Both the position numbers and the translations under genes were made by a program. Below, one piece after another: positions 3,034 through 12,709 of a DNA stretch of 20,687 nucleotides (position 1 is its first letter; each line of letters opens with the position of its first letter). The notes under the pieces are model-generated. The model ran no database searches. It was not told where the DNA came from and worked only from the letters and a program-made list of their open reading frames with translations. The stretch comes from a virus: positions 1-20,687 of IMG/VR virus record IMGVR_UViG_3300042344_000184; one strand, 5' to 3'.

Positions 3034-3043
3034 AGGAGCAAAC

Positions 3044-3520
3044 ATGCTAAGCAAACCTCTTAAGCCTAAAGTAGTAAAGATCCAGGGTGATGGCTTGTAC
3101 GCAACGGTTGAGTTCAACCATAGTTGCGGCGAACGGGTCAGCGGTGTTTTTTGGATTTTAGCCTGGGTCCATAGGCCAGAGGAAATGCTGAACGAAACCA
3201 AAATCGTTATCAACCGTGGATACTTTGGCCTCAACAGTCCTGATCTCTCAACGCTGGTAAAAAAACGAAATAAGCGTGAAAACGAGCGTTTATTGGCATA
3301 CTCAAGCACTAAGCTGCGCAAGCTAAAGCGGCCCAAGGTCATTGAAGTTGATGATCTTTTTGCGGTCATTGAGTTTACGCAAGACAACGGCGAGCGTGTA
3401 AGCGCCGAGTATCGCCGTCTCGGCTGGGTCATTGCTCCAGGCTTTGTTATTGCTGAAGTCCAAAAGTCCTTGGCTAGAGGATATAAAACCATCACCGGGC
3501 CTCGGATAACAATTCGCTGA
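3044..3520 (+). CDS. Protein with a duplicated domain, 158 aa, reverse-oriented in the late block
   Basis: ATG at 3044 has AAGGAG five bases upstream, so I prefer it to the earlier in-frame GTG at 3008. The product contains two copies of a ~50-residue unit. The first starts KPKVVKI, then LYATVEF, GERVSG and AWVHRPE, ending INRGYFG. The second starts RPKVIEV, then LFAVIEF, GERVSAEY and GWVIAPG, ending LARGYKT. This conservation between the repeats on this strand is the main evidence that it, and not the antisense frame, is coded. No family is recognised; the repeats look like small beta-rich domains. The gene lies between portal and the 1822-residue gene, opposite to both, and its 3' end overlaps the latter by 29 bases tail to tail. 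This is the layout of a 'moron', an extra gene with its own control. Confidence 0.75.
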   Translation: MLSKPLKPKVVKIQGDGLYATVEFNHSCGERVSGVFWILAWVHRPEEMLNETKIVINRGYFGLNSPDLSTLVKKRNKRENERLLAYSSTKLRKLKRPKVIEVDDLFAVIEFTQDNGERVSAEYRRLGWVIAPGFVIAEVQKSLARGYKTITGPRITIR

Positions 3521-6500
3521 CCATTTCAGCAGGCAGTGCTTCGCCAGCAGCAAGTGCAGCCATGAGTGCCGGTATACCGCCGCGCTTGATTAGCTCGAGT
3601 GCTCGTGCATAGTCTGGGCGCATCGGTATATTGGCGCGCTCATGCTGTTTGGTCATGAGTTCCAGTACATCACCGGCTATTGGCTGCGCTGCTTCGCTCA
3701 GTCTTCTTTGGCTAGCCACATCAAGTGGTGACAAGCGCTCTTGCAAGATCTTAGTGGCAGCACCCGTACCTTGCGGTCCTGTCAAAGCCTCGGAGTAGTC
3801 AATGTAATCACTGATATTTCTGGTCGGCACAGCGTCCTGTGAGCCTAGGTAATCAGCAATGTCTCTGCGACCTCGCTCTCCAAGGGGCAAGTTGCCTGGC
3901 TTGTACGGGTTGAAAATGGCCGCCACACCCCTGCCCGTATCAGCCAAGAACACATCATCATCTGTCATGGCTGAGGCATAGCGTATGTTTTCAGGATCGG
4001 CTTTTTTCTCAAGCTTCACCATGGCGCTTTCGCCCTTTAGCGTAGGAACCTGCAGGTTATATGTTGACCCTTGTTGCCCAGTCATGTAGCCACGCAAAGC
4101 CTCGGCGGCCCCAAGCTTCTCCTTGTAATCTTTGGGAATATCGCCGCGCTTGGTAAGCGGCACTTCAACGAGTGAAGCGTAGCCAGGGTTTGTTTCACGC
4201 GCCTTGGGTACGCCATAAGCCTGCTCTCTGACATTACCTTGAAAGCCAATCTCGCCTGATGGCCTGAATGATCCCGTCATGGACCTGGTTTGCAGCGGCT
4301 CGAGACCTAACGATCGCTGCAGTATGTCGCGCTCTTGCGGATCGCGGAAAGCGCCTGCCATGCGGCTTGAAAAGTATTGCTTTGCGCCAGGCGATGCAGT
4401 AATCATGTCGGGCAAGATGCCTGTGCCTTCGCCGGGTATGTACTCAATTTGTGCTGATGCAAAGCCTGATTCAGGCATGATCTCTCTAACTTCACCGCTA
4501 GGAAGCGTTCTTGTCTTTGGCAATTCAAAGATCTTTGACCTGCTCTCGCTCTCACGCAAACCCTTAAGGCTCTCAAGCCGCCGTGCTGCACGCTCTACCT
4601 CACGCTGCTCTGACAAGCTTAGGCTCGGGGCTGACTCAGGGAATTGATAAGGCTTCATGGCCGATAGCTGCTCGCCATAGCCTGCCTGGCGCAGCACATC
4701 GCCGTACTGACCCTGCGTGAGTAGCGTTGAAAAGTCGGGCGTACCGCGGATGCTTTCAGGCGTCAGTAAGCCGCGCTGCAGGATCTCGCGTGCTGGCAAT
4801 CCCGTCTTGCGTTGCATCTCATAAAGCGGCATGAAGTAGGACCAGGTGGTTTCCTGCGCCTCAGACGGCAGCATCTTGTTCAACTGCCCGGCTTCACGCA
4901 TGCGCGCACTCGAAGCGATGTAACCAGGCGATAAGCCAGGATCGCCGCGGCTTAGCTGCAGTGCGGTAGGCGAGCCGCTGAACATACCTTGATCCACGCC
5001 TAAGCCTGATGCCATCCAGGCGTCGTTTGTTACGCGGTACACATCATCAGCCAGGTTGCGGTAGAACGAGTCAACCTTGGGGCCTGAGAGCACCACATCG
5101 AGCGGATTAGGCGCACGCAAAGCGCGCATGGCGTTGTTGGTCCATGCATCAAGCACTGAGGCTTCAGTGCCCGAGCCTTGCACTGACTGGCCCATAATGG
5201 CCCTGATCTGCCTGGGATCAGTAGGCCTGCCTGCCGCGGTCCAGTTCTTCCAGGTGTTCAGCGCGTTAATCAGGTTGGACTCAACGCTGGTTTGTGGCGA
5301 CATGGCGGCCAGAAGTGATGCAAAGCGTGGCGCATCCTGTATGCCAAACACATCAATGAGCGCCTGTGTACTGGCTCGATACCAGCCCTGCTTGGGTGTG
5401 CCGGCCTTGGCCACAGCGGCCAGTTCTTTAGCCGATGGGATGGTCTGCAGCAGGCGATCCATCTCCTTGACGCCCTCGGGGTTGCGGATGATCTTGCTGA
5501 CTTCCTGTGGCGTCATGAACTTGACGGCATTTGAGAAGTCGGGGTAAGCCTGACGCAACCCATCGAGCGTTTCTTTCTCCTGGTCCGTTAGCTGCTTGGT
5601 CTGCGCCTTCAGTAGCTCCTTGCTTGTCTCACCCCTTACAGGGGCTTGTAACGGTGCTAGAGCGCCTGAAAGCGTTACGGACTCACGCTGCCTGCGCCCT
5701 TCTTTGACCGCCTGTCCTAGCGTGGTATCGCCCAGTTTGCTGATGTCTGCAGAGGCCGCCGCAGCTTTTGGCAAAAACTTCTTGCCTGCGAATTCAGCAA
5801 CATCAGAGACGGCCTTGCCACCGGCCATGCGGACAGGGCCGCCCATGGCAAGCTCGAGCAGCATCGTGTCGGGGTTATCAGATATGTGAACTCGTTTCAC
5901 GGCACCACCTTCTTTGTAAGGGATGGGTTTGCTGAACTTCTCGCGGATCTCAGGCGTGATGTCGAAGCCTAGCTGAGGCAAGGCTGGATGTGTTTTTTCA
6001 AGCTTGGCTATGTAAGTCTCTGCTTCATCAAGCGTGTCAAAATAATTTAACAACTCGCCAGACCTATCGTCATAAACATTGTATTTGTTATCACCTTCAT
6101 AATATTTAATGTAAGGATCTGGCACAGCATTCTTTACGGCCCCTGGTATGTTCCTGACTTTATCTTTGCCAATTAGCTTGCGTAGGCGATCGGGCACGAT
6201 TTGGTCATAAAACTTCTTCATGCCCTCGCCGCCAATGCTTAAGCCCTCGCCTTCTAGGCTGCCCGACTCACCGGCCATGATCTTCCTGGCAATATCCTTG
6301 CCAACAACATCGTCTAGCCTTTTGTCATCAAACTGTTTATCAAAACTGCTTTTTACAACACCTTCACGCGTAACAAGCAATTTAATCGGATTGCCGTTTT
6401 GCGTATTGATAACTACCGATTTATGTTCGGGAAAATGTTTTTTATAAATTTCATTTTGTGGCTTGTTGTTCCATGTAATATTGTCCACATAGTTAGCTAG

Positions 6501-11727: not shown

Positions 11728-11741
11728 TTTAATCCACTTGT
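11728..11741 (-). promoter_or_regulatory. 14-base motif shared with a distant gene leader
   Basis: On the minus strand this reads ACAAGTGGATTAAA, identical to 20113-20126 on the plus strand and close to 3006-3017. All three lie upstream of a gene whose ribosome binding site is (A)GGAGCAAA. Here it overlaps the last codons and stop of the Ref-like gene, and TACGAT lies about ten bases downstream as a possible -10 box. Promoter activity is inference from the second copy, which contains a near-consensus sigma-70 promoter. Confidence 0.4.
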
Positions 11742-12055
11742 GTAGACACACGCCATCCATCCGACAAGTGGTCATGGTAGGCAACTAAACGGCGTGTCAC
11801 ATGCAGCAGTTCAGCCTCATCCACCTGGTAATGCTTAGTAAACGCTTTGATACCCATGCCATGGATGCCAGTGCGTCCCCTATGGTGCTCAGGGCATAGC
11901 GGTATCGCGTCCCAGTGGCTTGCGCGCTGGGCCATGCCCGTGCCCTTCCTGGGGTGATGGATTTCACTCGGAGTGCCAGGATTGCCCTGAAGATGGCATA
12001 AAACACAACCAATTGCGGCAACTTTGCTCAAATGTTTTTTTTCTTCTTTATTCAT
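11729..12055 (-). CDS. Ref-like HNH nuclease, 108 aa, with recoded 5' end
   Basis: Matches the RecA-dependent Ref nuclease family of phage P1 and relatives, small HNH-type nucleases that act in phage recombination. I see IGCVLC with paired cysteines (residues 15-20), IHHPRKG (32-38), and IPLCPEHHRGRTGIHG (51-66), the usual Cys/His metal-binding pattern, then a helical tail. ATG at 12055 lies inside the last codons of the homing endonuclease gene (ATGAATAA, eight-base overlap), so translation is probably coupled. Codons 1-31 are AT-rich (9/31 end in G or C), while codons 32-51 have 17/20. The first 31 codons thus look like a foreign, recoded replacement of the original 5' end, a copy of which remains at 12614-12709. 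The product is still full length with all motifs, so probably active. Confidence 0.88.
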   Translation of the reverse strand: MNKEEKKHLSKVAAIGCVLCHLQGNPGTPSEIHHPRKGTGMAQRASHWDAIPLCPEHHRGRTGIHGMGIKAFTKHYQVDEAELLHVTRRLVAYHDHLSDGWRVSTQVD

Positions 12056-12569
12056 AATAGATATAAGTTTTTTGACATTTTATACGGCTAATACAGTTTT
12101 TTGACACTCCAAATTTTTCAGCCAATTTGTTTAATGAATCATTGCTTTGCCTAATTTTTCCAGCTTCTTCATTTGTTAATTTTGCAAATGGATTTTTCTC
12201 TCCAGCTTGCCATGTCCCATGTTTTTTCTTATCAGCATGGTTGTTTTTAATCGTGTCCCATCGAAGATTAGTTAAATAGTTATTAATTCTGATGCCGTCA
12301 TTGTGACAAGCCTCTTGATTTTGCTCAGGCTCACCTACAAAAGTGAGCAAGACGAGCCGATGAACAAGCTCTTGTTTCCTGCATCCTCCACCCGTCAAGT
12401 TAACGCATTCATAACCATTTTTTGCCACAATTTTTTTTAAGACTATGCCTCCTCGTGTTGAAATGCCAAACCGAGTTGGAACAGGCCGTCTTTTTGATCT
12501 TATGTTGCCGAAGGCTGAAACTTCATAAAAATTTTCCCAGCCAAAACACTCTTTCCATAACTCTTCCAT
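12048..12569 (-). CDS. HNH homing endonuclease with NUMOD4, 173 aa
   Basis: Homing endonuclease of the free-standing phage type that cuts alleles lacking its own gene. From ATG at 12569: a NUMOD4-like DNA-binding motif (WKECFGWENFYEVSAFGNIR, residues 5-24), an HNH_3-like core (VHRLVLLTF at 69-77, CHNDGIRINNYLTNLRWD at 88-105), and a C-terminal helix-turn-helix/NUMOD-type region (NPFAKLTNEE at 126-135, KLAEKFGVSKNCISRIK at 148-164). I chose this start because a full AAGGAGGT lies five bases upstream (12574-12581); the frame is open further upstream only because it runs through the ref fragment. The gene is visibly richer in A/T than its neighbours. It splits a ref-like gene and overlaps the intact ref copy by eight bases. 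Confidence 0.93.
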   Translation of the reverse strand: MEELWKECFGWENFYEVSAFGNIRSKRRPVPTRFGISTRGGIVLKKIVAKNGYECVNLTGGGCRKQELVHRLVLLTFVGEPEQNQEACHNDGIRINNYLTNLRWDTIKNNHADKKKHGTWQAGEKNPFAKLTNEEAGKIRQSNDSLNKLAEKFGVSKNCISRIKCQKTYIYYE

Positions 12570-12581
12570 GACCACCTCCTT

Positions 12582-12605
12582 TACACCATTGTAGCGAATG
12601 GTGTA
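12582..12605. repeat. 9-base inverted repeat upstream of the homing endonuclease
   Basis: TACACCATT and AATGGTGTA are perfect complements separated by six bases. They lie directly before the AAGGAGGT of the endonuclease gene and after the broken ref end. The stem does not include the ribosome binding site. It could be a transcript hairpin, an operator, or part of the element end. No T-tract follows, so a standard terminator is unlikely. Confidence 0.6.
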
Positions 12606-12613
12606 CAAAATTG

Positions 12614-12709
12614 CTACTCTGCTGGCGTACCTGGTGTGCCCTGCAAGTGACACAGCACGCAGCCAATGGCAGCCACCTTATCGAGGTGCTTTTTCTCTTC
12701 GTTGGTCAT
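12614..12709 (-). pseudogene. Stranded 5' fragment of a Ref-like nuclease gene (31 codons)
   Basis: ATG at 12709 overlaps the stop of the upstream gene as ATGA, the usual coupling in this operon, so this was probably the original ref start. The peptide matches residues 1-31 of the intact Ref-like protein at 26 of 31 positions (shared core KVAAIGCVLCHLQG), then hits TAG at 12614. It lacks the IHH and HH metal/catalytic motifs and cannot be an active nuclease. Its codons are like those of neighbouring phage genes (20/31 end in G or C), unlike the intact copy's 5' end. It is best read as the remnant left upstream of the homing element. It may still be translated as a short peptide. Confidence 0.88.

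Follow-up and report, generated by a model that had tools for sequence, protein, structure and literature searches.

The WHO elements at the FBA1 gene of Torulaspora and Lachancea yeasts consist of a nuclease gene and an adjoining FBA1 end that together form a mobile unit; the carried end confers resistance, older ends are pushed aside, and allele-specific cutting has been shown in yeast (PMC7282813). In fungal mitochondria, mobile ORFs in atp6 of Allomyces and Glomus, and also in atp9, cox2, and nad3, comprise an endonuclease ORF that brings a foreign gene end with it, and in Glomus atp6 the native remnant is 91% identical to relatives, with the two ends being 63.5% alike (PMC3630166). Phages are known to harbor free-standing homing endonuclease genes (HEGs) that home without introns, such as T4 SegF, MobE, which splits nrdA in Aeh1, and MobA in gene 60 (PMC2988022, PMC12724721); the accounts of SegF, mobE/nrdA, and mobA/gene 60 report no HEG located inside its target gene together with a substitute gene end (PMC2988022, PMC10448857, PMC12724721). 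Engineered home-and-rescue and cleave-and-rescue drives pair a nuclease with a form of its target that it cannot cut (PMC7968924, PMC7951863).

Here, we analyze a ref locus in a stretch of 20,687 nucleotides of viral DNA (IMG/VR record IMGVR_UViG_3300042344_000184; hereafter, the window), where an HEG separates a short ref fragment from a complete ref gene. The locus is, with high probability, best explained as an intron-less, end-replacing homing element in phages that acts at the 5′ end of its target gene.

Organization of the split ref locus

The locus reads on the minus strand, in the order upstream phage gene, ref fragment, leader, HEG, and full-length ref (Table 1). The ATG of the fragment overlaps the stop codon of the upstream gene (ATGA). 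The fragment, or stub, contains C17 and C20, lacks the IHH and CPEHH motifs, and is nonfunctional. Across codons 1 to 31, it shares 26 of 31 residues and 59 of 93 bases (63.4%) with the intact gene, and 20 of the 26 shared residues are specified by different codons. The GC content at third codon positions (GC3) is 20/31 in the fragment, 9/31 in the 5′ end of the intact gene, and 17/20 in codons 32 to 51 of the latter. All these figures, first given in a sequence-only reading of the window, were reproduced on recomputation. One detail needs a small correction: the fragment's terminal TAG already belongs to the insert as its first codon, which places the unit at 12616-11963 (654 bp).

Within the leader, a perfect 9-bp inverted repeat (TACACCATT/AATGGTGTA) is located just 5′ of the HEG ribosome-binding site and folds weakly better than shuffled sequences (z −1.94). 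Scans for promoters and terminators yielded nothing beyond chance. At the distal end of the HEG, its stop codon overlaps the start of ref, an arrangement that may couple the translation of Ref to that of the HEG; comparable overlaps are present in L088, L162, L177, and vB_VpP_1.

Table 1. Features of the ref locus in the window
Feature	Position	Strand	Remarks	Basis
Upstream phage gene	12706..13011	−	101 aa; without Pfam match	
Ref fragment including TAG	12614-12709	−	31 codons plus TAG	
Stranded native ref codons 1-31 (stub)	12617..12709	−		Identity to empty allele L016 (see text)
Mobile unit, 654 bp	11963..12616	−	Leader, HEG, and foreign ref codons 1-31	Near-identical in L066 and L009
Leader, 47 bp	12570..12616	−	Stub-ending TAG, 9-bp inverted repeat, AAGGAGG ribosome-binding site	Sequence
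HEG	12048..12569	−	173 aa; NUMOD4 (residues 3-59) and HNH_3 (residues 68-111); I-HmuI-like	Pfam; PDB 1u3e
HEG stop/ref start overlap	12048..12055	−	8 nt, ATGAATAA	Sequence
Carried foreign ref codons 1-31	11963..12055	−	AT-rich	Identity of 93/93 across all carriers
Native ref codons 32-108 and stop	11729..11962	−	Continuous with the original gene	Identity to empty allele L016 (see text)
Intact ref	11729-12055	−	108 aa	

The HEG product has the domain composition of an I-HmuI-like HNH homing endonuclease, with a NUMOD4 match (E 3e-10; 40.6 bits, cutoff 23.4) and an HNH_3 match that falls just under its curated cutoff (E 5e-5; 23.3 bits, cutoff 24.8); the sole solved relative found was the HNH homing endonuclease I-HmuI (PDB 1u3e; E 7e-13). 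The intact ref product matches PF16786 (Ref, RecA-dependent nuclease) at 36.5 bits (cutoff 26.9), which places it in this sequence family, and is shorter than the 186-aa Ref of phage P1, for which RecA-dependent cleavage is known (PMC4330346).

I-HmuI itself is intron-encoded (PMC2988022), and the insert could accordingly be viewed as a group I intron or an intein with an embedded HEG that is spliced out. However, the HEG is preceded by a stretch of only 47 bp and is not separated from ref, no intron family was matched (the sole hit, RAGATH-31, was subthreshold, with E of 0.21), and the stub ends at a stop codon, with the downstream ref possessing its own start and 5′ end. Given the absence of an intron family match and the separate ORFs with their own starts and stops, we reject a splicing element, the probability of which is next to nil.

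Empty sites in related phages

Querying IMG/VR with the Ref protein returned 78 loci, and 68 full-length ref sequences, including that of the window, were compared. The data are mostly metagenome contigs, and one structure recurs in ten of them. In 57 of the 68, corresponding to 41 distinct sequences, ref is uninterrupted and full length. A complete HEG lies between the fragment and ref in nine contigs besides the window (L001-L007, L009, and L066), and four further contigs (L008, L010, L090, and L102) end inside the element.

An uninterrupted ref with codons 1 to 31 like the fragment and a remainder like that in the window, for which the sequence-only reading had suggested searching, was found in L016, which matches the fragment at 89/93 bases and codons 32 to 108 at 216/231. 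Codons 1 to 31 of the intact gene in the window match L016 at only 62/93. Likewise, the L009 fragment shares all 93 bases with the empty allele L030, with 226/231 for codons 32 to 108. Overall, the carried end matches the close empty alleles at 62 to 66 of 93 bases and the fragments match them at 89 to 93, as would be expected if the fragments are remnants of the native gene. Because uninterrupted relatives match both the fragment and codons 32 to 108, ref was once a single gene, interrupted by the insert precisely at the boundary of codons 31 and 32; the earlier claim that the HEG splits ref is thus borne out.

Two consecutive ref 5′ ends with 63% base identity might also be taken for tandem ref paralogues, one of them truncated, between which an HEG landed by chance. 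However, 57 relatives have a single uninterrupted ref that matches the fragment and codons 32 to 108, not one of these 57 has two ref genes, and the GC3 switch coincides exactly with the end of the fragment. Furthermore, codons 32 to 108 of the occupied ref genes group with the local lineage, and not with the distant one that the sequence-only reading had named as a sign of paralogy. For this phage group, tandem paralogues are refuted by the empty sites, and we accord them hardly any probability.

Movement of the 654-bp unit

The element that would replace the ref end is nearly invariant in sequence, with 654/654 positions identical between the window and L066 and 653/654 between the window and L009. 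These contigs represent different backgrounds: upstream DNA is ~88-90% alike between the window and L066/L009, ~156 bp ahead of ref are present in the L066/L009 group and absent from the window, and the fragments differ at 8 to 10 of 93 bases. The shared identity stops 6 bp to the left and 20 to 23 bp to the right of the unit. As the sequence-only reading had proposed, the foreign 5′ end moves with the HEG as one unit of 654 bp, which the two backgrounds share, and this pairing of a nuclease gene with an adjoining divergent target end is what an end-replacing element would be expected to mobilize.

The closest pair of an occupied and an empty contig, L066 and L026, shows four differences in the 3,093 bp up to the insertion, and three of the four lie within the last 37 bp, as break repair with co-conversion from a donor would leave. 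To the right of the insert, L066 follows L010 (162/162) and not L026 (143/162), and therefore the exchange ran on or crossed over there. With one junction in two backgrounds and an empty/occupied pair, the HEG displays site-specific mobility. The unit moved recently between backgrounds, is polymorphic for presence and absence, and has defined boundaries, and the frame of the hybrid ref is open in every carrier.

These genomes are highly recombinant, with patchwork identities, and pieces of the foreign end are also found where the HEG is absent (in L028 and in the L031/L033 tails, see below), so the HEG could be aimed elsewhere or inactive and have traveled together with the ref 5′ end through ordinary homologous recombination between phages, the nuclease playing no role at codon 31. 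We consider such passive carriage unlikely, given that the exact left junction is common to two backgrounds, that identity is limited to the unit, that the differences cluster within the 37 bp leading up to the insertion, and that the design is repeated at ref with different HEG types. Moreover, ordinary homologous exchange produces neither a stub nor a nonhomologous left junction.

Origin of the carried 5′ end

Taken over its full length, the carried end has no close counterpart among the empty alleles; the nearest are L035, L047, and L051, at 77/93 bases, followed by L043 and L048, at 72/93. In a tree of codons 1 to 31, for which the bootstrap is not fully settled, the carried end groups with L035/L051, then with L028 and L033, with good support (97/97), apart from all fragments. 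The L035-type genes have a low-GC3 start (11/31) and a normal remainder. Thus, the "recoded copy" of the sequence-only reading is indeed a differently spelled 5′ end, but purposeful recoding is probably not how it arose, considering that L035, L047, and L051 are AT-rich, match the carried end at 77/93, and group with it. The existence of such empty alleles makes an origin by selected recoding unnecessary; the carried end appears to be a divergent natural allele, for which "recoded" is probably the wrong word. Empty relatives with an AT-rich ref start had been put forward as evidence against the model. Such counterevidence exists in part, in three contigs; the model is not broken by these alleles.

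At the junction, native GGTACGCCAGCAGAG is replaced by GGCACTCCGAGTGAA, a change at 7 of 15 bases, and on the codon-32 side nothing beyond ordinary variation is seen. In L028, native codons 1 to 21 are followed by sequence identical to the window from approximately codon 22 to codon 47, without an HEG. This pattern looks like the product of deletion or exchange between two 5′ copies, although L028 could also predate the unit. The empty AT-rich alleles and the presence of codons 24 to 31 of the foreign end in L028 without an HEG indicate that parts of the foreign end circulate apart from the unit, and ordinary recombination might explain part of the pattern. The L035/L047/L051 and L028 alleles may have supplied the foreign end or be left over from elements since lost.

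Separately, a second HEG of this phage group, with HNH-AP2 architecture, is found in a different background, in L031 and L033, where it immediately precedes ref (~600 bp before it); codons 27 to 31 of their ref match the tail of the carried end of the window.

Further HEG-ref arrangements

Further cases were sought with broader Ref and HEG profiles and as gene pieces repeated on either side of an HEG. A redundant set of 357 ref loci was scanned for another ref start on the upstream side. The highest score attributable to chance was 52, with nearly all remaining alignments at 41 or below, and this level was surpassed only by the family of the window and by three families from other ref lineages (105, 73, and 65). 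Because only these four families outscore the best chance alignment in 357 loci, the likeness between fragment and ref is not accidental. In L144, a stub of ~29 codons precedes a NUMOD4-HNH HEG (48% amino acid identity to that of the window) and ref; the stub matches the empty L154 at 83/84 bases and its own ref at 53/84. L177 and L181, which are identical in sequence, contain an 18-codon stub, an HNH-AP2 HEG, and ref, with 47/51 bases shared with the empty L147, 32/51 with their own ref, and a GC3 of 4/17 in the carried end versus 12/17. In L162, a 17-codon stub is fused in frame to the HEG, which is followed by ref; this stub shares 43/51 bases with L166 and 32/51 with the ref of L162 itself. 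In all four families, fragment and carried end are ~63% alike, close to the value for the two ends of Glomus atp6 (PMC3630166); the stubs are short in two of the four.

An HEG also lies directly before ref, with no stub detected, in L088/L089, L195/L196/L425, L197, L200, L212, L031/L033, L386, and Vibrio phage vB_VpP_1, with L425 located within an Aeromonas enteropelogenes genome. Stop/start overlaps are found in several of these pairs, which are likely precursors of the element. Among 222 distinct ref genes, an HEG is directly upstream in 17 and downstream in 2, and in about 8 versus 2 when only ref-found lineages are counted; this is only a hint that HEGs favor the upstream position because some loci came from searching with the HEG.

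Several other loci deserve mention in their own right. The HEGs before ref in L088 and L089 have near-identical C-terminal halves and ref genes and different N-terminal halves, as if nuclease halves had been swapped. A related HEG (36% amino acid identity) in L038 (1321-1815) and L040 (794-1288) is located in the region of an upstream DUF3310-type gene, apparently in a lengthened reading frame; as this HEG is not at ref, these contigs were rejected as ref-splitting cases. In L047 (and L051), a DNA cytosine methyltransferase-like gene (3300-4442) is inserted at ref codon 103 and the Ref C terminus is shortened; the original ref tail is left behind the insert, and hence the 3′ end of ref is an insertion site as well. 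In L244, copies of a C-terminal peptide of 12 residues (AQFLAMRENMG) flank an HEG (2350-2386 and 3039-3075), in different codons and not in the frame of the upstream ORF, which may reflect an end-replacing element in another gene, and L245 contains repeated pieces across an HEG that are paralogue-like (31%). Two phages were rejected as split-ref cases: in Thalassomonas phage BA3, ref is frameshifted and the HEG is located between it and a RusA-like gene, and in Pseudomonas phage FBPa19, ref is intact and there is no HEG.

A model of homing with end replacement

We propose that, during mixed infection, the predicted endonuclease would cut or nick native ref near codon 31/32, and an element-bearing genome would then serve as the repair template, from which the HEG and the foreign 5′ end would be copied. 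Codons 1 to 31 of the recipient would remain upstream as the stub, and the foreign 5′ end would join codon 32 in frame, yielding a full-length hybrid Ref that is presumably active. Immunity of the resulting allele is expected, as the left half-site now runs into the leader and the half by codon 32 differs at 7 of 15 bases. The first such event probably involved an HEG-ref pair from another phage lineage, the right side of which would have recombined in conserved ref sequence, with the left side joining the broken end without homology.

The sequence-only reading had gone further and called the locus a natural cleave-and-rescue element, that is, a drive in which the endonuclease disables a growth-needed ref in noncarriers and only carriers of the uncuttable copy survive. 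The linkage of a nuclease to a differently spelled, presumably uncuttable target copy fits such a drive, as does the hybrid ref being kept open in every carrier. Nevertheless, the label overreaches, and a strict drive of this kind is improbable: nothing shows that ref is essential here or that element-free genomes die, empty alleles outnumber carriers, and insertion at the cut site is homing, which alone accounts for insertion at a target with homology on both sides.

Tentatively, the end-replacing homing proposed here might extend to a whole class of phage elements for which ref is a standing battleground. Different nuclease families would repeatedly capture divergent ref 5′ ends, home by means of them, and leave immune alleles of the L028 and L035 type when lost, with homing conflict driving the diversity of the ref 5′ end and Ref, as a recombination-promoting nuclease made from the same mRNA, perhaps helping the copying step; we regard this broader scenario as possible rather than probable.

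Two nuclease architectures converge on one small gene, ref, and near-isogenic genomes with and without the element capture the insertion almost in progress. The model explains how a gene can harbor a free-standing HEG that has no intron around it and still not be destroyed, and the locus offers a small natural model for home-and-rescue inheritance and resistant alleles. For annotators, short gene stubs before HEGs can be homing footprints.

Comparison with known systems

Like the WHO elements, the phage unit mobilizes a nuclease gene with a divergent end of the target gene, leaves the native end as a fragment, and occurs in diverse copies at one gene. However, the WHO elements reside in a yeast nuclear gene, encode an intein-derived zinc-finger nuclease, replace the 3′ end, and form tandem clusters, whereas the unit described here is a single-copy phage element with an HNH enzyme that acts at the 5′ end. 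The WHO family proper is defined by an intein-like zinc-finger nuclease at the 3′ end of FBA1, and the phage locus has a NUMOD4-HNH nuclease at the 5′ end of ref. With the fungal mitochondrial mobile ORFs, the unit shares the replacement of a native end by a foreign one, and the likeness of the two ends is almost the same (63.4% here and 63.5% in atp6); the mitochondrial ORFs differ in encoding LAGLIDADG or GIY-YIG nucleases and in replacing the carboxy end. Because nuclease families, gene end, and genomes differ, the phage unit is a member of neither group.

Within phages, the closest parallels are free-standing HEGs, with which the unit shares a free-standing nuclease gene and, presumably, resistance through replacement of the target by donor-allele sequence and an HNH enzyme that nicks. 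The T4 mobA gene and the gene 60 bypass sequence reportedly form a mobile cassette (Bonocora et al. 2011). There too, an HEG moves together with an adjacent target-altering sequence and the target gene stays usable, but gene 60 is saved by ribosome bypassing, and ref by a replacement 5′ end. A literature search, with most subscription papers outside its coverage, found no phage element of this design.

Engineered drives differ from the phage unit in being engineered and aimed at essential genes, and ClvR need not sit at its target; the unit is closer to home-and-rescue than to strict cleave-and-rescue. End-replacing homing elements have already been described in yeast nuclear and fungal mitochondrial genes, and the present locus probably extends them to phages and to the opposite, 5′, end of a gene.
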